Below are positions 1,587-19,445 of a DNA stretch of 32,070 bases, one piece after another (within the stretch, counting starts at the first letter, position 1; the number at the start of each line of letters is the position of its first letter). The stretch lies in contig JAJPIS010000075.1 of NCBI GenBank assembly GCA_021324635.1, positions 1 through 32,070 of the forward strand. The letters are read 5' to 3'. Source of the stretch: Gemmatimonadota bacterium (GTDB taxonomy: Bacteria > Gemmatimonadota > Gemmatimonadetes > Gemmatimonadales > Gemmatimonadaceae). Made by a program: the position numbers and the translations under genes. Below the pieces are notes generated by a model. That model did no database searches. It was not told the origin of the DNA and saw only the letters and a list, made by a program, of their open reading frames with translations.

Positions 1587-2462
1587 ATGCATGGTTCGTC
1601 CCTACTCGTCGTTGCCGCGTGCCTCTCTCTATGTGCACCGCCGAAACTTGTTGCACAGTCGCCCCGTTGGCTGACGCTCCCCGAGCCGCCCGCGATGCCG
1701 CGACCCGACATGGTAGTTTTCGTGCCGGTGGCAGGCCGTGCGCGTCTCTATGCTGCCGTCTACCACCGTTCGAACGCCACGCCGGTGGTCCTGCTCCACA
1801 GTGGACTACTGACCTCCGACGTGTGGGCGTCCGAGGTCATGCGGCTCGCGCCATCTCATGAAGTCATCGTCATGGATATCCGAGGGCATGGCCGGAGCAC
1901 GCTCGGGTCCCTGCCGTTGTCGTACACGTTGCTGGCGGCGGACGCGCTGACGGTTCTTGACTCGTTTCACGTCTCCAAGGTCGCCGTCGTGGGCTGGAGC
2001 GATGGGGGTATCACGGGACTGCTGCTCGCTATCAATCATCCGAGTCGCATCGCCGCACTTGTCACATATGGCGCGCACTTCGACCACTCGGGTGATGTCA
2101 CGACAAAGCCTGACAGTCAGACGGTCGCTTTCAACAACCGCTATGAGGCCTTGGGTGCGGCGGAGTACCGGCGCCCTTCTCCGACACCCGGCAATTGCCG
2201 GACATTCGAGGCGGCGCTTGGCCAGTTGTACACCCACGAGCCCGCGATCGCGCCGGCGGCGCTACGCTCGATTCGCGTGCCGACGACGGTCGTCGCCGGC
2301 GATCACGATGAGTGCGTGCTTCGCTCGCACAGTGAGCGTTTGGCGGCGCTCATCCCGGGCGCACGGTTACTGATCCTGCCGGATGTGAGCCAAGAAGAGC
2401 CGCTCCAGGACCCGGTCGGCTGTGACCGCGTCGTGGAACGATGTCTGAATGACCATGCGTAA
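1587..2462 (+). CDS. Secreted alpha/beta hydrolase lacking the usual catalytic histidine
   Basis: A 291-residue alpha/beta-hydrolase-fold protein with an N-terminal signal peptide (hydrophobic core about residues 4-16, AQ cleavage-like site near 24). The oxyanion region VVLLHSG is at 67-73, strand plus turn VMDIRGHGRS at 95-104, the nucleophile elbow GWSDGG at 136-141 (Ser138) and the acid in AGDHDECV (Asp241 most likely). At the place where the family has a catalytic His (GxSHxxPLQDP) this protein reads DVSQEEPLQDP, so Gln269 takes its place. Ser and Asp are kept, so activity is doubtful or relies on another base. The last 14 bp overlap the next gene, suggesting translational coupling. Base composition is less G/C-rich than the right part of the window. 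The substrate cannot be predicted. Confidence 0.82.
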   Translation: MHGSSLLVVAACLSLCAPPKLVAQSPRWLTLPEPPAMPRPDMVVFVPVAGRARLYAAVYHRSNATPVVLLHSGLLTSDVWASEVMRLAPSHEVIVMDIRGHGRSTLGSLPLSYTLLAADALTVLDSFHVSKVAVVGWSDGGITGLLLAINHPSRIAALVTYGAHFDHSGDVTTKPDSQTVAFNNRYEALGAAEYRRPSPTPGNCRTFEAALGQLYTHEPAIAPAALRSIRVPTTVVAGDHDECVLRSHSERLAALIPGARLLILPDVSQEEPLQDPVGCDRVVERCLNDHA

Positions 2463-3927
2463 AGACCGTCGCTGCACGTGGCTGCTACTCGCCACCCTCG
2501 TCACACCGTGCGCGTCGGCCAATGCCCAGTCATCATCGGTGACCCTGCCGGAGACGCCATTGGGTCACCTCGCGAGCGATTGGATTCAGCTGTGTCAGCA
2601 TGCGAATCGGAATCAGGTCGCGCAATGGCTCACGGCGCATCTGTCGGCCGACGGCATGCGTGGCGCCTCAGTGCCATATCGGACGGCCATTCAGATTGAA
2701 GAGTGCACCGGTAACGGCGCAATGCAGGTGGCCCGCGTTCGTGAATCGACCACCCAGAGGATGCAGGTGGAACTGGTAGGCGCGAAATCGGGCTCGTGGG
2801 TCTTACTGGACCTGGAAGCGAACGACGTTGGACAATTGGACCATGTCTCGGCGAGTCCCACGGTGCCGCCGGAGTCGGCGATGCCGCGGGACTTGAGTGA
2901 CTCGGCGCTTGGGAAGGACGTACGTGCGCTCGTTGCACGTATCGGAGCCGCGGGGTTGTTCTCCGGTATCGTCACAGTGGCCCGCGATACCCACGTGATC
3001 GTGCAGGCCACCACCGGGTACGCGAACCATTCGCGTCAGACGCCGATTACGGGATCCACGCAGTTCACTTTGGGCTCGCTGGGCAAGATGTTCACCGCCG
3101 CGTCGATCGGCCAACTCGTCGATCAAGGCAAGATCTCGTTCGGCGATCCGGTCGGCAAATTCTTCCCCGACTATCCGAACGCCCTAGTGCGCGATCAGGT
3201 GACGGTCGGAATGCTGCTGTCGCACACGGGAGGGCTCGGCGACTTCCTCGCCCGGCGGACGCCGGAGATGATGAAGAACGGCGTGGCGCGGGCCGCCGAA
3301 TTCTTACCTCTCTACGACCATGATGCACCGCTCTTTACACCTGGGACGCAGTGGGCATACAGCAATGCGGGCCTCGCGCTCGCTGGCGCGATCGTCGAGA
3401 AGGTCTCAGGCGAGGATTATCCAGCGTACATCCGCCAGAACATCTTCGCTCGAGCCAGGATGGCGCACAGCGATCCCAATAACCAACCGCGTGCCTGGTC
3501 GGATCTCGTAACGCCGTACACGAAATTCACGCCTCAGGGTCCGAGTGCCGATTGGACAGAGGCTGCGGCAGACATCGGTAGTCCCGCTGGGGGCGCGATC
3601 TCAACGGCGGATGATCTGGTTCGTTTCGCCGCGGCACTTCGGCACGGGACGTTGGAAACGTCCGCTACATTCGCGGAGATGATCAAACCACGCCATGTGG
3701 TACCCGATCGGGGCCAGTACGGTTATGCCATGGAGATTACCGATGTCTATGGTCGCACAGTGGTCGGGCACGGTGGTGGGTTCTCAGGCGTCAGTACGCA
3801 TCTCTACCTGGTGCTGGGCTCTCCGTATACGATCGTCGTGTTGGCAAATCAAGATCCTCCGGCCGACGGCTATGGCGGGCTCATGACGCTTGCCCTCGTC
3901 GCGGAAAAGGCCAAGCGTGGTCAGTAG
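2449..3927 (+). CDS. Secreted serine hydrolase, beta-lactamase / class C PBP fold
   Basis: A 492-residue protein with a signal peptide (MTMRKDRRC, hydrophobic stretch to about 20, ANAQ cleavage-like site at 24-27). A poorly recognised N-terminal segment (about 30-150) precedes the catalytic domain of the beta-lactamase-like serine hydrolases: SLGK at 210-213 gives the SxxK nucleophile and general base, YSN at 304-306 is the second motif, and HGGG late in the chain replaces the KTG box, as is common in esterase or peptidase members. The start ATG at 2449 overlaps the upstream hydrolase by 14 bp; a second in-frame ATG at 2455 is possible. The family includes D-aminopeptidases, esterases and AmpC-like enzymes, and nothing here argues specifically for antibiotic resistance. 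The overlap implies co-expression with the alpha/beta hydrolase. Confidence 0.88.
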   Translation: MTMRKDRRCTWLLLATLVTPCASANAQSSSVTLPETPLGHLASDWIQLCQHANRNQVAQWLTAHLSADGMRGASVPYRTAIQIEECTGNGAMQVARVRESTTQRMQVELVGAKSGSWVLLDLEANDVGQLDHVSASPTVPPESAMPRDLSDSALGKDVRALVARIGAAGLFSGIVTVARDTHVIVQATTGYANHSRQTPITGSTQFTLGSLGKMFTAASIGQLVDQGKISFGDPVGKFFPDYPNALVRDQVTVGMLLSHTGGLGDFLARRTPEMMKNGVARAAEFLPLYDHDAPLFTPGTQWAYSNAGLALAGAIVEKVSGEDYPAYIRQNIFARARMAHSDPNNQPRAWSDLVTPYTKFTPQGPSADWTEAAADIGSPAGGAISTADDLVRFAAALRHGTLETSATFAEMIKPRHVVPDRGQYGYAMEITDVYGRTVVGHGGGFSGVSTHLYLVLGSPYTIVVLANQDPPADGYGGLMTLALVAEKAKRGQ

Positions 3928-5754: not shown

Positions 5755-5843
5755 GGTAACTAGAGAAACGGCAGTAAGAACGTTACTGGCTCTCGATCTT
5801 AATGGGAGCACGGTAACGTGTCAACCGCCGCATATGAGGTTAC
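5755..5843. promoter_or_regulatory. Divergent promoter/operator region with four spaced GTAAC/GTTAC half-sites
   Basis: Between the divergent hydrolase and CGNR regulator lie GTAAC (5756-5760), GTTAC (5782-5786), GTAAC (5813-5817) and GTTAC (5839-5843). The half-sites alternate in orientation and are spaced 26, 31 and 26 bp, so the array is two copies of one inverted pair offset by 57 bp. The two central sites extend to a perfect inverted repeat ACGTTAC (5780-5786)/GTAACGT (5813-5819). The layout suggests an operator bound by a dimeric regulator, most simply the adjacent CGNR protein. Binding is inferred. Confidence 0.55.
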
Positions 5844-6448
5844 ATTTCCCGAGCATGGAACCGGTTTTCGTCGGCGGCCATCCAGCCATCGATTTTGTCA
5901 ACACCGCGTTCTCACCGCAGGGTGAGCCGGTGGACGTGATTCACGACGGCCGCTCATTCCTCGATTGGCTCGTGCGCGCCGGCCTCCTGACGGAGTCGGC
6001 CTCAACTCGGTTGAGGCGCCGCGTCAGCGCCAAGCGCTTGGACGCGGCCGCCACGGCAGCGCGTGATATGCGAACCTGGGCCAGGTCATGGATCACGCGC
6101 TGGCGTCTCGACCCGGAAGCCGACTATGGCGCCGAGCTCCGCCGCCTGAACACCTATTTGCATCGCGGCGCCTCGTCTCGGGAGGTCATCGCCGAGAATG
6201 GCTGCCTACGCCTCGCCGAGCGCGTTCGACTGGAGAGCGTGGATGACGTGCTGGCCATTGTTGCGACGCGAGTCGCCGCCCTGGTCACCGGCGAAAATCC
6301 GTCGTGCATCAAGTCTTGCGCGGGCTCCAACTGTACCCTCTTATTTCTCGACCGCACGAAGGGTCGCCGCCGCCTCTTTTGCAGCGCCTCGACGTGCGGG
6401 AACCGCGCGAAAGTTGCCGCCTTTCGCGCGCGGCAGGCCGGCCCGTAA
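5834..6448 (+). CDS. CGNR zinc-finger / ABATE-domain transcriptional regulator
   Basis: A 204-residue protein of the two-domain family with an N-terminal ABATE domain (GGHPAIDFVNT at 14-24) and a C-terminal CGNR treble-clef zinc finger. The zinc ligands are Cys162, Cys167, Cys183 and Cys188, the last opening the CGNR motif at 188-191, followed by the basic helix RAKVAAFRARQ. Such proteins are thought to be DNA-binding, stress-responsive regulators and often sit beside the gene they control. An in-frame ATG at 5855 (MEPVFVGGHPAID) is an equally likely start and would keep the last GTTAC half-site out of the coding region. The gene is divergent from the dehalogenase-type hydrolase; regulation of that gene and of itself is inferred. 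Confidence 0.85.
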   Translation: MRLHFPSMEPVFVGGHPAIDFVNTAFSPQGEPVDVIHDGRSFLDWLVRAGLLTESASTRLRRRVSAKRLDAAATAARDMRTWARSWITRWRLDPEADYGAELRRLNTYLHRGASSREVIAENGCLRLAERVRLESVDDVLAIVATRVAALVTGENPSCIKSCAGSNCTLLFLDRTKGRRRLFCSASTCGNRAKVAAFRARQAGP

Positions 6449-6581
6449 GCAGGATCGCTCGGCGGCAGCCCGTCGCCGGTGAATCGATAGGACCGGCGGG
6501 TCCGACGGATGGGATCTCCTGCGCCTTTGGCGTGATCTGTTGGACGTTGTCGCACGGAGTGGGGCGGGCCATAATTGGCGG

Positions 6582-7661
6582 ATGCGGTCCGACAGCGCGC
6601 GCACCCTCCGAGTCGTGGCCCTGGCGACGCTCGCGGCCGGGATCTTCTTCACCGCCGAAGAGGTCTTGGCGGATCTGGCCCGGAGTCGTGGGGCTGACAT
6701 CCCGGGAGATATCTGGAGCGGGGCGCAGACGTGGGGGGCATGGGCGCTGCTCACGCCGGCCGTCGTGGCGGCGCTCCGTCGCTGGCCACTCGATCGGCGC
6801 CCGATCGCGTATCCGCTGGTGGCGCACGCGACCGCGGGGCTCACGCTGGCGGTCGTCCACAACCTGTTCGATACCGCCTTGTTCCGGCTCGAGCTCCACC
6901 TCCGGGGCGCGATGAGCATCCGGGAGGCACTGACGGCGGCTCCCAACCCCGTCGGCTTCGTCTTCAACCTGTTCACGGGACTGGTCTACTACTCGCTCGT
7001 GGTGGGCGGGTACACCACGCTCCGCTACCGAATGAGCGCCGAGACGCTGCGGGCAGAGTTGACCGAGTCCAAGCTCGACACCCTGCGCTCGCAGCTCCGC
7101 CCCCACTTCCTCTTCAATACGCTGAACACCATTTCGGTCTTCGTGGTCAAGAATCCGGAGAAGGCCCAACAGATGCTCCTGCGGCTCTCCTCGCTGCTCC
7201 GGCGGAGCCTCGACGAGGACGCGCACGAGGTACCGCTGCGACAGGAATTGGCGTTCCTCAGCGATTACCTCGACATCCAACTCGGGCGGTTCGGCGACCA
7301 GCTCGCGGTGGGCGTCACGGCGGATCCGGCGGCCCTCGACGCGAGCGTGCCGGTCTTCCTCCTCCAACCGCTCGTCGAGAACGCGATCGAGCACGGCACG
7401 TCGGAGGACAAGCGCACCACGATCGCGGTCCGGGCGACCCGCGACGCCAGCATGCTGCACGTCACGCTCGAAGACGACGGGCCCGGCGTCCTGACCGGCG
7501 CCTCGCCGCGCGAGGGCATCGGGCTTCGCAATACCAGGGCGCGGCTGTATCACCTCTATGGCACGCAGGCCACCGTGACGCTCGGCCCTGCGCAGCGGGA
7601 CGCCGCGTGTCCGGGCACCCGAGTCGAGATCCGGATCCCCTATCGCCCCGCGTCCGCATGA
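6582..7661 (+). CDS. LytS/YehU-type sensor histidine kinase
   Basis: A 359-residue kinase with about four transmembrane segments in the first 145 residues, a short coiled linker, and the His_kinase domain motif LRPHFLFNTLN (phospho-acceptor His175). An HATPase follows, with the N-box VENAIEHG, the DDGPG box and GIGLRNTRARL. There is no separate sensor domain, so the membrane segments probably sense the signal. I chose the ATG at 6582 rather than the TTG at 6540 because it starts immediately before the first hydrophobic segment. The stop overlaps the next start (ATGA at 7658-7661), so kinase and regulator are translationally coupled. Target genes are unknown. Confidence 0.9.
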   Translation: MRSDSARTLRVVALATLAAGIFFTAEEVLADLARSRGADIPGDIWSGAQTWGAWALLTPAVVAALRRWPLDRRPIAYPLVAHATAGLTLAVVHNLFDTALFRLELHLRGAMSIREALTAAPNPVGFVFNLFTGLVYYSLVVGGYTTLRYRMSAETLRAELTESKLDTLRSQLRPHFLFNTLNTISVFVVKNPEKAQQMLLRLSSLLRRSLDEDAHEVPLRQELAFLSDYLDIQLGRFGDQLAVGVTADPAALDASVPVFLLQPLVENAIEHGTSEDKRTTIAVRATRDASMLHVTLEDDGPGVLTGASPREGIGLRNTRARLYHLYGTQATVTLGPAQRDAACPGTRVEIRIPYRPASA

Positions 7662-8479
7662 ACGTGCTGATCGTGGACGACGAGCCGGTCGCACGCGAGG
7701 GACTCCGCCTGCAGCTCGAGCGGCTCCCCGGCGTGGCGTGCGCCGGAGAGTGCGGCGGCCGGGACGCCGCCATCGCGGCGATCGTCGAGCGCCAACCCGA
7801 TGTGGTGCTCCTCGACATCCAGCTCGGCAGGGCCACCGCGTTCGAGATCATCGAGGAGATCGGGGCCGACGCGATGCCGTTGGTCGTCTTCGTCACCGCC
7901 TACGATCGCCACGCGCTCAAGGCGTTCGAGGTACACGCCCTCGACTACGTGCTCAAGCCGGTCGACCCGGTGCGGCTGCGGGAGGCGCTCGAGCGGGCGG
8001 CATCGCTGCTGTCGCTGCGGCGGACGGCGTCGCTCGCCGACCGCCTCGAAGGGCTGCTGGCCGACCGCGGACCGGCGCCGGAGGCGACCACGCTGCCACG
8101 GCCGGAACGATTCGTGGTCCGCAACGGGGACCGCCTGTCGCTGCTCGAAGCCGAGCAGATCGAGTGGTTCGAGAGCGCCGGTAACTACGTGCGGGTCCAC
8201 AGCGGCGGTCGATCGTACATCATGCGCACGACGATGGATCGCGTGGCACAGCGACTCGCCGGGCGCGACGGCTTCGTCCGCGTCCGGCGCTCGGCGATCA
8301 TCAATGTCCGCGCGGTCGCGACGCTCGAGCGCTACGACAAGGGCACGTACGTCGTGCACCTCCGCAGCGGGACCAGCGTCATCTCGAGCCGCTACTACCA
8401 GCCCGGCCTTCGCCGACTGTTGCACCCCGACCGGCACGGCGGGTCGCGGGTCGCCAGCGGCGGGGACCGGTCACAGTGA
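7658..8479 (+). CDS. LytTR-family response regulator
   Basis: A 273-residue partner of the preceding kinase. The receiver domain has the acidic pair DDE at 7-9, phospho-acceptor Asp53 (VVLLDIQLG), FVTAYD and the conserved Lys in YVLKPVD. The C-terminal LytTR DNA-binding domain shows IEWFESAGNYVRVH, a middle RTTMDRV and FVRVRRSAIINVRAV. The ATG overlaps the kinase stop codon. LytTR proteins bind pairs of imperfect repeats upstream of target genes; none was identified here. It is convergent with the pseudo-hydrolase gene, with only about 30 bp between stops and no clear terminator. Confidence 0.92.
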   Translation: MNVLIVDDEPVAREGLRLQLERLPGVACAGECGGRDAAIAAIVERQPDVVLLDIQLGRATAFEIIEEIGADAMPLVVFVTAYDRHALKAFEVHALDYVLKPVDPVRLREALERAASLLSLRRTASLADRLEGLLADRGPAPEATTLPRPERFVVRNGDRLSLLEAEQIEWFESAGNYVRVHSGGRSYIMRTTMDRVAQRLAGRDGFVRVRRSAIINVRAVATLERYDKGTYVVHLRSGTSVISSRYYQPGLRRLLHPDRHGGSRVASGGDRSQ

Positions 8480-8510: not shown

Positions 8511-9632
8511 CTACCGACTCTGATCATAGACCTCGCGGATGGCGCTCACGACCGCGTCGGGTCGATCGAATTCCACGTACTCCGAGCTCGCCGGCGTGAA
8601 GATCTGCCTCGAGTTGGAGGAGAGATCCAACCAGCGCGCCTGGGCCAGAGCGATCTGGTGCTCGTACTCGCGGTGCTGTGGGTCGTCCGCGTTTGGCGCC
8701 GGCAAGTGACCCACGCCGTGGTTGCCGGTGGTCAGGACCCGGACCGGACGGGTGCCCAGGAAGCGGCGATGCTGCTGAAGCCAGGTCTCGTCCCACGGCG
8801 TCTGCTCCATCTCCGACACGAACGCGTCGTACATCGCCACCTTGGTCTCGGCCAGGTGGAGCAACGCCGCGTTGAGCTCCGGCGACCACGCGCTCTCCGG
8901 CAGTCCACGAAAGAACTGCTGGGCACAGGTGCGATGCGGTTGGCCCGCGCGCGGGGGCAGGAGCGGGAGCGGCCTGCTGGCGGCGATCGAGTCGCGGCAT
9001 TCGCGGACCCGATCGAGGAACTTGGCCATGCCCCGGTGGTCGGCTTCTCGCAGGGAGTCGGGCTCGACGTCGCTTGCGTCGGCCTCGACGAGCACGAGCC
9101 CGGCCGTCTCCGACGTGTACAGATCGGCAAAGGTGCGCGCCGGGTCACCGCCGAATGCGTTGCCGACCAGGATGAATGGTCCCTGGATCCGGGCCGACCG
9201 GAGCGCGCTGTGGAGCTCGTCGGCAATGCGCACACTCGTCCGCGGCACCGGACCGGCGCCGCTGAACCCGGCACCGGCGCGGTCGTAGCTGCACGCCCGC
9301 GTCCACCGGGCGACCCGCGGCTGGACGACCGCCCACGCCGGCGCCCAGTCCTCCCATCCCGATTCGAAGATGACGGCGGGTGAGCCACTGCCCATGCAGT
9401 ACATGTTGAGCCGCGCGCCATCGGCCGCCGCGACGATCCGCCCGGGCCGCGTGTACCTCGCATCGCCGGGCGCCTCGCGCCGCATCGCGAGCAACAGACA
9501 CCCGCCGAGCGCCGCCGCGCCAAGCCGTACACCGAGGACGCGGCTCGCGGCCGTCGTCGGCACCCGTCGGCGTACGGTGGGCAGCGGCGTCGGTCCTTGC
9601 TGCGTCAGGTCCCCGGTCCGCCTGGTCTGCAC
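8511..9632 (-). CDS. Membrane-anchored alpha/beta-hydrolase-fold protein with lost nucleophile and His (pseudoenzyme)
   Basis: A 373-residue protein from a GTG at 9632 with AGGGAGAG a few bases upstream. A hydrophobic segment at about 32-50 gives a signal anchor. The fold is clear: YCMGSGSPAVIFESG (78-92), CSYDRAGAGFSG (114-125), then the elbow FILVGNAFGGDPAR. Relatives carry GHSFGG here; this protein has Ala159 in place of the nucleophilic Ser and Asn instead of the preceding His. Near the end, where relatives have SGHxxxxDxP, it reads SSEYVEFDRP, so Glu351 replaces the catalytic His. Two triad members are therefore absent although the frame is intact, which argues for a retained non-catalytic or re-purposed role. 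It lies 73 bp downstream of, and probably in an operon with, the SUMF-fold gene. Confidence 0.82.
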   Translation of the reverse strand: MQTRRTGDLTQQGPTPLPTVRRRVPTTAASRVLGVRLGAAALGGCLLLAMRREAPGDARYTRPGRIVAAADGARLNMYCMGSGSPAVIFESGWEDWAPAWAVVQPRVARWTRACSYDRAGAGFSGAGPVPRTSVRIADELHSALRSARIQGPFILVGNAFGGDPARTFADLYTSETAGLVLVEADASDVEPDSLREADHRGMAKFLDRVRECRDSIAASRPLPLLPPRAGQPHRTCAQQFFRGLPESAWSPELNAALLHLAETKVAMYDAFVSEMEQTPWDETWLQQHRRFLGTRPVRVLTTGNHGVGHLPAPNADDPQHREYEHQIALAQARWLDLSSNSRQIFTPASSEYVEFDRPDAVVSAIREVYDQSR

Positions 9633-9705
9633 CGTCTCTCCCTGGTAAGATGAGGAGCAAAGATCCGTGGGATGGCTGTCCACGTGGCCCCGGTGTCGGC
9701 AACCA

Positions 9706-10809
9706 TCAGATCGTCTTGGCCACGCGAAACCCCATGATCCGGTCTCGAAACCCCGGCGGATTGCGCTCGCGCGTCGCCGGTCGTAGCAGCCACGCCGGGT
9801 AGAGCCAACTGCCGCCACGGTCGACGCGCATGCAATCACGCGCGCCCGGCGCCGGCCGCCCGTCCGTCGGTGCGTGGGCGTAGCTCTCGGCGTAGCAGTC
9901 GGCCGTCCACTGCCATACCTCGCCGACCATGTCGAAGAGGCCATAGGTGTTTGCCGGGCGCGATCTCACAGGATGCGTTCGGCCGCCGGCGTTGTCTTTG
10001 AACCAGGCGTAGTCGCGCGCCGCGCTGTCGGACTCTCCCCACCAGAACCGAGTCTCCGTCCCGCTCCGGGCGGCGTACTCCCACTCGGCCTCGCTCGGGA
10101 GCCGATACGGTCCGCCGCTCCGCGTCGCGCCCGGCGTGCGCACCTTGTCGTTGAGCCAGCGCACGTACGCCTGTGCGTCGTACCAGCTCACGCACACGAC
10201 CGGGTCGCGATCGCTCTGCTCGAACCCCGGCCGCCGCCAGCTCAGCGCGGAGTCCAGATCCCACTTGTAGCTGTCACGCCCGCACCCGACCGGGCTCGCG
10301 TGCCCCGTCTCGCGCACGAACGCGGCATACTGTGCGCGCGTCACATCGCTCACGCCCATCGCGAACGACGGGATCGAGACCGCGTGCCGCGGCGCCTCGT
10401 CGGCGACCGCGGCGGCGCTGCCGCCATGGGTCGCCGCCCACGCGCGATCGACCGCCGAGGACCCCATCAGGAAACGGCCGGCGTGCAGGACGGTCATCTC
10501 CGGGCAGTCCCGGCAATCGACGAAGACGCTGCCGGCGGCGGCGACGGGTCGGCGTGGTCGCGCCGAGACGGCGTGACCCGGCGCCTGCCGCTCCCGCGCC
10601 CCGAGCAAGCACGCGGCGAGCGCCGGCGCGCGCAACGGCAATCGCCGGACGCGGGCCGCACTCCGCTGTGGCGAGCCCCGGTATCCGGCACCCGGGTGCC
10701 GACCCATCGTTGCATCCGCCCGGCCGCTGCTGGACTCGACCGACACTTCTTCTCCCGCATGAGGGACAGGGCGAAGGATACGATCGGGCCGGTTCACCGG
10801 ACCATGCAT
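9706..10809 (-). CDS. SUMF1/FGE-fold protein (formylglycine-generating enzyme family) without catalytic cysteines
   Basis: A 367-residue protein starting at an ATG with AGGTGA five bases upstream. A membrane or signal segment (LPLRAPALAACLLGA) lies near residues 57-71. The SUMF domain is well preserved: FLMGSS, DEAPRHAVSIPSF, PVVCVSWYDAQAYVRWL, YRLPSEAEWEYAARSG, NTYGLFDMVGEVWQWTAD, RGGSWLY and MGFRV. True formylglycine-generating enzymes have a copper-binding Cys pair after GGS; here that segment is WLYPAWLLRPATRE and has none, so sulfatase activation is unlikely. Other SUMF members work as structural or EgtB/PvdO-like proteins. No sulfatase gene is near. It is probably co-transcribed with the downstream pseudo-hydrolase. 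Confidence 0.85.
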   Translation of the reverse strand: MHGPVNRPDRILRPVPHAGEEVSVESSSGRADATMGRHPGAGYRGSPQRSAARVRRLPLRAPALAACLLGARERQAPGHAVSARPRRPVAAAGSVFVDCRDCPEMTVLHAGRFLMGSSAVDRAWAATHGGSAAAVADEAPRHAVSIPSFAMGVSDVTRAQYAAFVRETGHASPVGCGRDSYKWDLDSALSWRRPGFEQSDRDPVVCVSWYDAQAYVRWLNDKVRTPGATRSGGPYRLPSEAEWEYAARSGTETRFWWGESDSAARDYAWFKDNAGGRTHPVRSRPANTYGLFDMVGEVWQWTADCYAESYAHAPTDGRPAPGARDCMRVDRGGSWLYPAWLLRPATRERNPPGFRDRIMGFRVAKTI

Positions 10810-15743: not shown

Positions 15744-16017
15744 GGGGCCTCCCCGTGGAGCGTTGGCGTCAGCCGTGCTGTCGAGCCGCTCACGATGACG
15801 TGAGCCCTCGGTCGCGCGCGGTGCGCGCAGAACCCCGCCCGACGCGGCCCTGCGGCGCGTGCAAGGGGTATGCCCCGACTCGACCGGCACCCGCGGCAGG
15901 CGCGTCCCGAGCGGCGGCCGGTTCAAACCAGCGGCAGAGCGCAGATGTCGGACACTACGGATGAACGCGCGGGCTGGGTCGGGTGAAGCGACGCACCACT
16001 CGTTGCGACGCGGCGTC

Positions 16018-17589
16018 ATGCGCGGAGCGTGGGTGGCCTGCGGTCTCGTCGTCATGGGCTGCGGACGTTCGGGTGCTGCGCGGACGAGCAGACCGGATTT
16101 CGCGGCGATCCGCGCGGCGATCAGGGACAGCGTCGCGGGTGGGCGAGTGCCGTCGATGGCGGTGGCGGTCGCCCGGGGCGACACGGTGCTCTGGGAGGAA
16201 GCGTTCGGGATGGCGGACCCCGTCCGCCATGCAGCGGCGACGCCGAGCACGATGTACCAGACTGCCTCGGTCACGAAACTCGTGACCGCCTCGGCGCTGG
16301 CCGTGTTGTGGCAGCGCGGGCAGCTGGACGTGCAGCGACCAGTCAACGCGTACCTCGGCTCGGAGCATCTCACGAGCCTAGCCTGGGATCCGGCGGGCGC
16401 CACGGTGTGGCGCGTCGCCACGCAGACGAGCGGGCTCGCGACCTACGATGATTTCTGTGCCGTCCCCGAGCCGTTGTGCCAGGAGGCGATGATCCGCCGC
16501 TACGGGGTGCTCATCTGGCGCCCGGGCGAGCGCTTCGACTACTCCAATCTGGGCTACGGGGTCCTGAGCGAGGTGGTCCGGCACGTCTCGGGCGAGTCCT
16601 TCGGGGACTTCGTGCGGGACAGCATCTTCCGGCCCTTGGGACTGGCGCACTGCACGGCGAGTGTCTCCGGCGCGGCCCTCGCGCCCGGACTCGCGGTGCC
16701 GTACGACACGCATGCCGGTCGGGTCGAGCACCCACGAGTCCGGGCAGCCCAGGGCGCGTCGGCCGTCTGGTGCAGCGCCCACGACCTGCTGCGGTTCGCC
16801 ATGGTCCAGCTGGGCGAGCGCGTGAGCGGCGCGTCGCAAGTGCTCGCCGACTCCGCGATTCGCGCGCTACGGGTCTGGACAGTGCCGGCGGGTGACGGCC
16901 TCCGCTACGGCTTCGGCTGGTGGCACGAACGCCGATCCGGATACGATCTCACCTACGTGGGCGGTGGGACATCCGAGGCGGTCGCGCTGCTCTATACCGT
17001 GCCGGCGCAGCGGATCGCCGTCGTCGTGATGGCCAACACGTATACCCCGCTGGCCTCGGCCGTCGTGGACGATGTGCTCTCGACACTGCTCCCCGGATAC
17101 GGCGCCCCGCACGACGCTGCATCCACCGCCCCGACCGCTCCCCGGAAGGAGTCGCCCGACTCGCGATCGGTGATCGTCGGGTCCTGGCGTGGCGCGGTGT
17201 ACACGGGCGCCGGGTCACGCACGCTCACCCTCTTCAGGGGACGCGGGGATACGATCTGGGTCGCGCTGGCGGGGGCGCCGGCGATACCGCTCATGGAGGC
17301 GAGCGAGCGGGACGGGGAGCTCGCGGGAGCCTTTGCGGGGAACCTGGGGATCGACCGCTCCGACCGGCGGCGCCACTACATGCTTCGACTGGTGCTCGTG
17401 CGGCGGTCACCCGATCGGCTCAACGGCGGCGTCTGGACACGCCCACTTCCCGGCGCCGACGACGATCCGCTGCACACCTACTGGGCGGAGGTGAGGCGCG
17501 AGCGGCGGCCGGGCGCCTCGCCACACCCGGTGTCCGAGTCGGCTCGGCGATGGCGCCCGGAGTCCCGCCGCCCGGCGCCTACGGGATGA
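16018..17589 (+). CDS. Serine-hydrolase lipoprotein, beta-lactamase fold
   Basis: A 523-residue protein starting MRGAWVACGLVVMGCGRSG, a lipoprotein signal with lipobox VMGC and lipidated Cys15. The catalytic domain has SVTK at 84-87 (SxxK), FDYSNLGYG (YxN) and VGGGTSE in place of the KTG box. A C-terminal domain after about 390 (SVIVGSWRGAVYTGAGSRTL onward) is beta-rich, resembling the lipocalin-like tail of similar hydrolases. An upstream ATG at 15961 would add 19 residues but places the Cys later than usual. Probably a periplasmic esterase or peptidase. Its 3' end overlaps the convergent ferritin-like gene by 11 bp. Confidence 0.86.
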   Translation: MRGAWVACGLVVMGCGRSGAARTSRPDFAAIRAAIRDSVAGGRVPSMAVAVARGDTVLWEEAFGMADPVRHAAATPSTMYQTASVTKLVTASALAVLWQRGQLDVQRPVNAYLGSEHLTSLAWDPAGATVWRVATQTSGLATYDDFCAVPEPLCQEAMIRRYGVLIWRPGERFDYSNLGYGVLSEVVRHVSGESFGDFVRDSIFRPLGLAHCTASVSGAALAPGLAVPYDTHAGRVEHPRVRAAQGASAVWCSAHDLLRFAMVQLGERVSGASQVLADSAIRALRVWTVPAGDGLRYGFGWWHERRSGYDLTYVGGGTSEAVALLYTVPAQRIAVVVMANTYTPLASAVVDDVLSTLLPGYGAPHDAASTAPTAPRKESPDSRSVIVGSWRGAVYTGAGSRTLTLFRGRGDTIWVALAGAPAIPLMEASERDGELAGAFAGNLGIDRSDRRRHYMLRLVLVRRSPDRLNGGVWTRPLPGADDDPLHTYWAEVRRERRPGASPHPVSESARRWRPESRRPAPTG

Positions 17590-18409
17590 TGAACGGACTT
17601 GCGATCGCGAGCACCTCGGCCCTGGTCAGCGGCTCGTCGAACGCTTCGGTCGCGTCACCCGTCCGGAAGTGCAGGGCCAGGATGTCGACCCCGCCCTGGA
17701 ACACGTTCTGCTCGCCGGCGTACACCGCCGCCGTACCCGGCACGTCGGTCGTGTTGTCGGTGATCCAGCCGCGGTTGGGGACCAGGTCCTGGAAGTTGCC
17801 GCGCAGCCGACGCACGGCCGACGCATGCCGCGCCTCCACCGCATGGATCTGGAGGGCCGCGGTGAGGATCGGCTTGACGCCCCGGAGGAACGGCGCCTGG
17901 CCCTTGTAGGCCCGGACGCCGGTGTCCTCGAACGCCTGCGAGAGCGCCGTGAACTTGTCGTAGACGAAGAACACGTCGTGAAACGGACCGTTGTGTGCCC
18001 CCTGCGCGCCGGAGAAGTCGAACTCCGGCGTCCGGACGGCCCGGTCGCCCAGCGCCGCCTTCAGGTACGCCACGTGCTCGTTCTCGTGTGACTGGATCGT
18101 CTGAAAGATCGGCGCGTCCTGTGGCGGCACGACATGGTACTGCGGCGACAACGCGTAGTTGTAGAACGTCGACTCGAGATACTCGAGCGTGAGCGCAAAA
18201 TTGAGCACGTCGACGACCTCGTTCGGCAACCCGCCCTGGGCGAAGACGTCAGTCGAGAGCGCGGCCAGCGCGACCGGCACCGAAGCCATGGCGAGGCCGG
18301 CGGCCGTGACCCGACCGACGCTCGCGCCCCGCGCGATCTCCTGGTCGCGACGGACCAGGCGCTCCCCGATCTCTGGATCGAGCGAGCTCAGTAGAGACTG
18401 GTCATTCAT
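17579..18409 (-). CDS. Ferritin-like domain protein (desiccation-related type), copy B
   Basis: A 276-residue protein of the PF13668-type ferritin-like family, as in plant desiccation-related proteins. After a degenerate Tat-like N-terminus (VRRDQEIARG, hydrophobic stretch about 35-50, FAQ cleavage-like site) come NFALTLEYLESTFYN, SHENEHVAYLKAAL and HAVEARHASAVRRLRG, supplying Glu and ExxH residues expected of a four-helix di-metal site. CGGGAG lies upstream of the ATG. It starts 29 bp after the stop of copy A, so the two form an operon. Iron binding and stress protection are suggested by the family only. Confidence 0.86.
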   Translation of the reverse strand: MNDQSLLSSLDPEIGERLVRRDQEIARGASVGRVTAAGLAMASVPVALAALSTDVFAQGGLPNEVVDVLNFALTLEYLESTFYNYALSPQYHVVPPQDAPIFQTIQSHENEHVAYLKAALGDRAVRTPEFDFSGAQGAHNGPFHDVFFVYDKFTALSQAFEDTGVRAYKGQAPFLRGVKPILTAALQIHAVEARHASAVRRLRGNFQDLVPNRGWITDNTTDVPGTAAVYAGEQNVFQGGVDILALHFRTGDATEAFDEPLTRAEVLAIASPFIIP

Positions 18410-18438
18410 GGTGCACTACTCCCGTGGAGAGGATCGAG

Positions 18439-19218
18439 CTACGCCATGGTGGCCGGCACATTGACGAGCGTGATCGTGTTGACGATGAAGGGCCCCGCCA
18501 TCTCGAGGACTGTCGCCGGGCCCAGGGCGCGGTCCCGTCCGTGGCTGTCGATCACATCGCTGCCCGCGAAGGCCGGGGTGCGATCGCCGAAGAGCAGGCC
18601 GCGGATCGCGGCCGCGTGGCGGGCCTCGACCGACACGATCTTGCCGGCCAGGGTCAGATAGCTGGCGCTGGCCAGGAACTGCGCCGCGCCGTTGTAGGCG
18701 GCGACGCCCAGGTCCTCGAACGTGCGCGCCGTCGTCAGCACGCTCGTTCGGTCGCGGAAATTGACCGCGGAAAAGTTCGGCGTGAGCGCCGGAATGGCGT
18801 GCGCGCCCAGGGCCGCCTTGAAGAACGCCGCGTGAATCACCTCGTGCGCCCAGACCTGCCGCAGCACGTTCTGCTCGTGACCGTCCATGTCGGCATCGGG
18901 GAAGGACGTCTTTACTCTCGTGTAGAACGCCGCCTCGAGCTGCTCCAGCGCGTAGGCGTAGTTGAGCACGCCGAGATCGCTGCCGAAGTCGAGCATCACG
19001 GCCGGTGTGCTCGACCGCGCGCCGACGGCGCCGAGCACGTGTGACAGGCTGGGCGCGGTCGACGGATTGTCGCTGCAGCCGGCCAGGAGTCCCGGGACGC
19101 AGAGCGCCGCGCCTCCGATCCCGACGGCCCGCAGGAACTCACGGCGGTTCGCGGCTCGTCTGGCCCCTTCGGGCAGTCCATCACGTCCGATCACTTGACC
19201 CGCTACGTCGGGCGGCAT
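18439..19218 (-). CDS. Ferritin-like domain protein (desiccation-related type), copy A, Tat lipoprotein
   Basis: A 259-residue protein; the ATG at 19218 has GAGAGGG at six-base spacing. NRREFLRAVG (Arg25-Arg26) is a clear twin-arginine signal and LLAGC gives a lipobox with Cys48, so the protein is probably exported folded and lipidated. The ferritin-like helices carry NYAYALEQLEAAFYT, WAHEVIHAAFFKAAL, EDLGVAAYNGAAQF and VSVEARHAAAIRG. First gene of a pair with copy B; divergent from a GntR regulator 227 bp away. A cofactor inserted before export would explain the Tat signal (inference). Confidence 0.88.
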   Translation of the reverse strand: MPPDVAGQVIGRDGLPEGARRAANRREFLRAVGIGGAALCVPGLLAGCSDNPSTAPSLSHVLGAVGARSSTPAVMLDFGSDLGVLNYAYALEQLEAAFYTRVKTSFPDADMDGHEQNVLRQVWAHEVIHAAFFKAALGAHAIPALTPNFSAVNFRDRTSVLTTARTFEDLGVAAYNGAAQFLASASYLTLAGKIVSVEARHAAAIRGLLFGDRTPAFAGSDVIDSHGRDRALGPATVLEMAGPFIVNTITLVNVPATMA

Positions 19219-19445
19219 GCGCGTACCCTCTCGTCGTGACATGGTCCGCCAGTGAGGAGTGCCGAGGCATGCGGGGCTGGCTCCCAGCTGCCCCACGGTC
19301 CGCAAACCGATGAGGGTCGGCGGCGCTGCATGATCCGAGCCAATGTGATCCAGAACGACGTACAGTTGTGCTTCTAGCGCACCGTTGAGCATGTTTCGTG
19401 TACAGACAGGCAGAGTCAGCCGTCGGACGCCTCCGGGAGTCGTGT

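Follow-up and report, generated by a model that had tools for sequence, protein, structure and literature searches.

The SUMF-hydrolase gene pair

The window, by which we mean the whole stretch of 32,070 nucleotides analysed, carries on its minus strand a gene for a protein of the SUMF/FGE fold and then, after 73 bp, a gene for a protein of the alpha/beta-hydrolase fold. The preliminary description had reported the two genes as co-directional and 73 bp apart, and both were found where it placed them. The features of the locus are as follows.

6540-7661, plus strand: LytS-type histidine kinase (Pfam); context, not part of the pair
7658-8479, plus strand: LytTR response regulator (Pfam), convergent on the hydrolase gene; context
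8511..9632, minus strand: hydrolase-fold gene; alpha/beta-hydrolase fold without Ser-His-Asp triad, 373 aa from GTG 9632
8511-9944, minus strand: full open frame of the hydrolase gene
8580..8585, minus strand: Ser350-Glu351 replacing Gly-His; Glu351 (codon GAG) lies opposite the His of 4uhc
8709..8711, minus strand: Gly308 replacing the catalytic acid, by alignment
9144..9146, minus strand: Asp163, a new carboxylate 4 residues past the elbow Ala
9156..9158, minus strand: Ala159 (codon GCA) within the elbow motif GNAFGGD; aligned with the nucleophilic Ser of 4uhc
9633..9705, minus strand: intergenic gap from SUMF stop to hydrolase GTG, 73 bp
about 9637-9643, minus strand: AGGGAGA, a ribosome-binding-like site by sequence
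9706..10809, minus strand: SUMF/FGE-fold gene, called at 367 aa, with a true start possibly further downstream
9784..9801, minus strand: stretch of the SUMF protein where FGE has its two cysteines; here Tyr337...Leu342, with no Cys

The likely start of the hydrolase gene, read from the sequence, is the GTG at 9630-9632 preceded by AGGGAGA. Hydrophobic N-termini are visible in both proteins, in keeping with the N-terminal membrane or signal segments previously ascribed to them, and the hydrophobic leader and conserved cysteines of the hydrolase-fold protein suggest that it is exported. The two leader regions resemble each other at the protein level (SUMF 10525-10680 and hydrolase 9423-9569, minus strand; 48-51% identity over about 50 residues), with an E value of 3.5e-4 for the whole window genome. 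At the DNA level support for the likeness is weak: it failed the stricter test, where the pair scored 10, a value exceeded in 151 of 177 ORFs, and in a differently framed one it scored 28, equalled by 1 of 500 shuffles. Elsewhere in the window are a tandem pair of ferritin-like (PF13668) genes, at 17579-19392, and two serine beta-lactamase-family (PF00144) genes, at 2449-3927 and 15859-17589 of this 32-kb contig.

Membership of the hydrolase-fold protein in the alpha/beta-hydrolase superfamily is indicated by both profile and fold: it matches PF00561 (Abhydrolase_1) with 30.4 bits against a cut-off of 25.8, and an AlphaFold model made from eleven sequences (pLDDT 71.7, pTM 0.67) finds, among the PDB matches listed, only alpha/beta hydrolases at the top (highest Z 15.9, over 241 residues, rmsd 4.0). 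In the model, whose numbering is the residue number minus 23, the elbow follows strand 130-137 and the Glu follows strand 318-323; a profile of eleven family members set against 4uhc puts Ala opposite the GxSxG serine and Glu opposite the GH histidine. The replacements noticed earlier, of the nucleophilic Ser by Ala159 and of the catalytic His by Glu351, are numbered correctly from GTG 9632, and a third had been missed, that of the catalytic Asp by Gly308, at a position assigned from the alignment. All three hallmarks of a serine hydrolase—nucleophilic Ser, His after strand 8 and acid after strand 7—are absent. These data, with retention of the same Ala and Glu in orthologues, support the view that the window protein is most probably not a serine hydrolase; "alpha/beta hydrolase", the name that Pfam-based annotation would give it, is misleading.

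The SUMF protein matches PF03781 with 195 bits, which assigns it to the SUMF fold. Its C-terminal motif, RGGSWLYPAWLL, is without the two cysteines that FGE has there; Cys is missing at this place from 5/5 members of the subfamily, so that the earlier remark on the lost cysteines stands and the window protein does not have the catalytic pair of an FGE. That the protein is non-catalytic is not thereby shown: the cysteines are equally absent, in alignment, from the best solved relative, PvdO (5hha, E 1.5e-31), which is needed for an oxidation. Membership in the PvdO family proper does not follow, the match to NF051459 (NCBIfam) being 160.9 bits and below the cut-off of 500. PvdO, dihydropyoverdine dehydrogenase, is described as periplasmic and required for oxidation of dihydropyoverdine, and as inactive when purified, other components perhaps being needed (passages of PMC6206403).

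Conservation and descent of the altered site

Hydrolase-fold proteins with the same Ala and Glu were found in 12 distinct genomes including the window's, the family being defined as proteins about 60% or more identical to that of the window, with duplicates removed (L001=G002, L003=G321 etc.); identities range over 60-80%. Ala, Glu, Asp163 and Ser350 are each present in 12/12, and the catalytic-acid position is occupied by Gly in ten, Ala in one and His in one. Orthologues that retain Ser and His, as local decay of the window gene would predict, were thus not seen. In seven close relatives (45-55% identity) these five positions are, in the same order, Ser, His, Tyr, Gly and Asp in every case; the elbow residue is Ser in 8/8 distant relatives, and Ala also in two sister proteins. 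The seven Ser/His proteins share 105 invariant columns, of which eight are altered in all 12 Ala/Glu proteins. The whole triad is among these eight (hypergeometric P 3e-4), and so are the changes of Tyr to Asp163 and of the Gly before His to Ser350. Conservation of the replacements across 12 genomes excludes chance. Sixty-four columns show one and the same residue throughout both groups, and much of the scaffold has therefore been kept, the SGWEDW stretch included.

An initial scan of genome contigs yielded 10 relatives using short query peptides, one of which spans the Ala and may favour Ala proteins; the whole-protein searches that follow are free of this bias. Matches at E <= 1e-45 were found in 4 of 395 Gemmatimonadota genomes, in 12/149 of the phylum of G399 and 2/396 of that of G406, and in three further groups in 1/299, 1/288 and 1/162, each time the centre genome itself. 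The MAGs that carry the Ala/Glu gene are labelled Gemmatimonadota, Eremiobacterota, Acidobacteria, Verrucomicrobia and Proteobacteria. The gene is rare within each group searched. The records behind eight of the 12 bear these labels: Gemmatimonadetes, Gemmatimonadaceae, Eremiobacterota (two), Verrucomicrobia, Proteobacteria, Blastocatellia and Acidobacterium. A plasmid collection gave no match to the hydrolase-fold protein. We also looked in the 12 genomes for a close, active paralogue as a possible target of regulation by the protein, and obtained a single match per genome at E <= 1e-45; at E <= 1e-30 second matches appear in G002 and G403, 35-48% identical and of the Ser type. We found no description of the Ala/Glu family within the literature searched.

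In a tree of 29 sequences (IQ-TREE; the fragment L049 left out) all 14 Ala proteins group as a single clade (99/96) surrounded by Ser/His proteins. Inside it the Ala/Glu proteins, 12 in number, make up a clade of their own (100/98). The simplest account is thus a single loss of Ser that preceded the fixation of Glu. The two other Ala relatives are L066:4774-5775, with Tyr at the 163 position and Gln at the His position, and L067:9487-10482, with Asn and Ile there. They would mark steps that preceded the Ala/Glu clade, and the different residues that they carry suggest that the carboxylates of Asp163 and Glu351 arose after Ser was lost. The Ala is encoded across the 12 genes by GCA, GCG, GCT and GCC and the Glu by GAG and GAA; dN/dS is 0.09-0.19 in seven pairs of Ala/Glu genes, compared with 0.11-0.18 for two pairs among the intact relatives. 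Selection thus keeps the gene with the altered site about as tightly as it does those with the triad. Taxonomic groups are mixed in the gene tree, with G006 apart from the other Gemmatimonadota, and this mixing and the rarity per group lead us to infer that the gene has moved horizontally among soil bacteria.

Association with SUMF proteins and a shared operator

The hydrolase gene adjoins a SUMF gene in two of the 12 genomes, the window's own and G906, of the same phylum as G399 (Eremiobacterota), where a 54% identical SUMF gene lies tail to tail with it. No SUMF gene lies near it at the other ten loci; the flank upstream is shorter than 1 kb in G401, G404 and G405, so adjacency may be under-counted. 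A SUMF protein of the same subfamily (E <= 1e-100) is encoded in 4/12 Ala/Glu genomes (window, G002, G401, G906) and in 1 of 123 others: none of 68 comparison genomes, which were picked by handle order from prior searches and of which 10 include other relatives of the hydrolase, and one (G021) of 55 genomes of the window's family that are without the Ala/Glu hydrolase. Fisher's test gives P 1.8e-4 for this co-occurrence, or 1.6e-3 without the window genome, values to be taken as a guide only, the genomes not being independent. At E <= 1e-40 no SUMF match was obtained in seven of the 12 genomes, and the one in an eighth, G402, is only 45% identical; the SUMF proteins of G957 and G402 were aligned with the rest and, at 41-47% identity to the others, stood outside the subfamily count. 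SUMF identities (55-65%) do not track the hydrolase tree, and an all-against-all comparison of 19 loci with a crude gene caller revealed sporadic sharing of genes only, rather than a conserved neighbourhood.

A regulatory connection is seen in G002, where the hydrolase gene (contig C10) and the SUMF gene (contig C27) are unlinked. Each is preceded, 78-90 bp from its likely start codon, by TTGACA-N8-TACAGATGTAATCGTTC, an element that agrees with the refined 16-base consensus of CopY-family operators, RNYKACANNTGTMRNY, and that we accept as a predicted operator in G002 only. That consensus comes from a study in which BlaI and MecI are among the repressors assigned to this operator, and in which TACANNTGTA alone is reported to be a poor predictor (passages of PMC7253601). 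The 2,363,992 bases of G002 examined (about 56% of 4.2 Mb) contain TACAnnTGTA just twice and the 16-mer just twice, in each case in the promoters of the hydrolase gene and of a SUMF-BlaI-BlaR1 operon. Rarity alone proves little, since composition leads one to expect about 5 copies of TACAnnTGTA in this DNA; the evidence rests on the matching 17 bp, the equal spacing from TTGACA and the location in two promoters. The SUMF gene is followed by those for a BlaI-type repressor (PF03965, 128.5 bits) and an M56 protease of BlaR1 type (PF05569, 194.7 bits), in an operon-like run at L079:9768-12091, and these are the sole BlaI/BlaR1 homologues found in the portion of G002 examined (about 56%). BlaI would be expected to bind both predicted operators. 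In the other genomes, that of the window included, the 350 bp preceding each of the two genes contain no operator of BlaI/CopY type, and the regulatory link is thus lineage-specific.

In G401 the hydrolase and SUMF genes are on different contigs, between which we sought an assembly overlap and found none, and their leaders are alike over about 117 bp. This Verrucomicrobia-labelled MAG has three secreted-protein genes with similar 5'-leader and signal-peptide DNA, at L061:675-780, L061:2340 and L078:9911. The common leader is weak evidence of partnership because of the third gene, which scores 38 against 48 for the hydrolase/SUMF pair. As proof that SUMF and hydrolase are partners, leader likeness is weakened by that gene and by the stricter DNA test in the window.

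The proposal of a conserved gene pair can be kept in part: adjacency in 2/12 genomes, a same-subfamily SUMF protein in 4/12 and the common operator in G002 speak for it, and a close SUMF is absent from 8/12. The association is thus genuine in some hosts without being a requirement, and we would describe the whole, on sequence grounds, as an apparently inactivated alpha/beta-hydrolase subfamily with a lineage-dependent partner. Profiles of the PADLOC collection assigned neither SUMF nor hydrolase to any family (0 families), leaving a part in anti-phage defence unsupported.

Proposed function, rival readings and known systems

At about even probability, we propose that the hydrolase-fold protein is a secreted, serine-less ligand binder, with which a PvdO-like SUMF protein is co-expressed in some hosts. 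The protein, secreted or periplasmic, would descend from an active serine esterase. The triad of that ancestor would have been dismantled once: Ser gave way to Ala first, and later Glu took the place of His and Gly that of Asp. Purifying selection would then have kept the altered pocket, with its Asp163 and Glu351, while the gene spread between soil phyla. The old active-site pocket would now bind, without hydrolysis, a ligand similar in kind to the substrates of the ancestral esterase, and the two carboxylates suggest one that is cationic or rich in hydroxyls. In some hosts the secreted SUMF protein might act on or with the same ligand; by analogy with PvdO, its role could be to modify a small molecule that the hydrolase-fold protein holds or presents. 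In G002 the envelope signalling pair of BlaI/BlaR1 type would switch on both genes. Ligand binding and joint action with SUMF are what we infer from these facts taken together. An earlier suggestion, of two non-catalytic partners forming a binding or sensing pair at the envelope, survives in that the hydrolase-fold protein is retained and is not of the serine type, and is curtailed in that linkage to SUMF is confined to some hosts.

Were the window viewed alone, loss of the triad would fit a dying esterase gene; identical replacements in 12 genomes, under dN/dS of 0.09-0.19, lead us to reject such local decay, to which we attach practically no probability. That the hydrolase-fold protein acts alone, its SUMF neighbour in the window being incidental, would account for the seven genomes devoid of a SUMF match at E <= 1e-40 and the eighth with one of 45%, for adjacency in just 2/12 and for neighbours that otherwise vary between genomes; it sits poorly with co-occurrence of 4/12 against 1/123, with the operator common to both G002 promoters and with adjacency in two arrangements in two phyla, and we judge it unlikely. 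A function as extracytoplasmic input of the neighbouring LytS/LytTR two-component system was hinted at earlier from the convergence of these genes on the pair. Convergence is there in the window, and in 3/12 genomes (window, G321, G403) the distance from the hydrolase gene to a LytTR gene is no more than about 5 kb; in the window (5834-8479) and in its sister G321 (L056:6093-7231) alike, the hydrolase gene has an ABATE/CGNR zinc-finger gene and a LytTR gene converging on it, G321 being without a close SUMF despite this arrangement. Against it, the LytTR gene was not found at the other 9 loci, including that of G002, of the same genus, and its orientation differs in G403: the link is weak, and such a role for the protein most improbable.

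The main rival to ligand binding is acid-base chemistry by Asp163 and Glu351: the protein would still be an enzyme, using them as general acid and base in the old pocket, for example as a lyase, as an isomerase or in hydrolysis without a covalent intermediate. In haloalkane dehalogenase and in soluble epoxide hydrolase, the residue four past the nucleophile forms part of the cavity wall. Both carboxylates are fixed in 12/12 and both appeared after Ser was lost (the sisters having Tyr/Gln and Asn/Ile), and the strict retention of Glu351 fits new catalysis as well as binding. The literature searched, on the other hand, yielded no alpha/beta-hydrolase enzyme with the Ala/Asp/Glu set, and we regard new chemistry as possible yet rather improbable.

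Beyond the ligand-binder proposal we would put forward, tentatively and with more doubt than belief, a horizontally spread extracytoplasmic module, made up of a former esterase with a rebuilt Ala/Asp/Glu pocket and a PvdO-like SUMF protein and controlled in at least one lineage as a two-locus BlaI/BlaR1 regulon; the rebuilt pocket would have a new function, either non-hydrolytic or of a novel acid-base kind. The common operator in G002 offers a handle on the partner and on the conditions of expression. A fold that loses its catalytic residues and yet stays under selection shows how binding proteins or new enzymes originate, and here the path can be read in living relatives, from an intact triad through the loss of Ser to the replacement of His and Asp and the fixation of two carboxylates.

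Comparison with known systems places the family as follows. The esterases and lipases of Abhydrolase_1 (PF00561), such as the Thermogutta esterase 4uhc, have the same fold and strand order, and the same place of the elbow and of the loops that bear the acid and the His; the window protein differs from them in the replacement of Ser, Asp and His, in two new carboxylates and in its N-terminal hydrophobic leader. Nearer to it, at 45-55% identity, are the Ser/His/Asp relatives L068-L072, L046 and L048, from Eremiobacterota and Acidobacteria, which have a similar leader, the same cysteines and an SGWEDW-like stretch, but whose triad is intact and whose genomes contain no close SUMF. Neuroligin and thyroglobulin have lost the catalytic Ser. 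These two and DPP10 are described as animal proteins that use the alpha/beta-hydrolase fold without hydrolysis, for binding or modulation (PMC5943944 and PMC4350108); they belong to other families, whereas the window protein is bacterial and has a fixed Ala/Asp/Glu set. The G002 arrangement resembles BlaI/MecI/CopY systems with M56 proteases of BlaR1 type in the PF03965 and PF05569 genes that follow SUMF and in the operator, and departs from them in its predicted targets, which are SUMF and a serine-less hydrolase-fold protein in a single genome.
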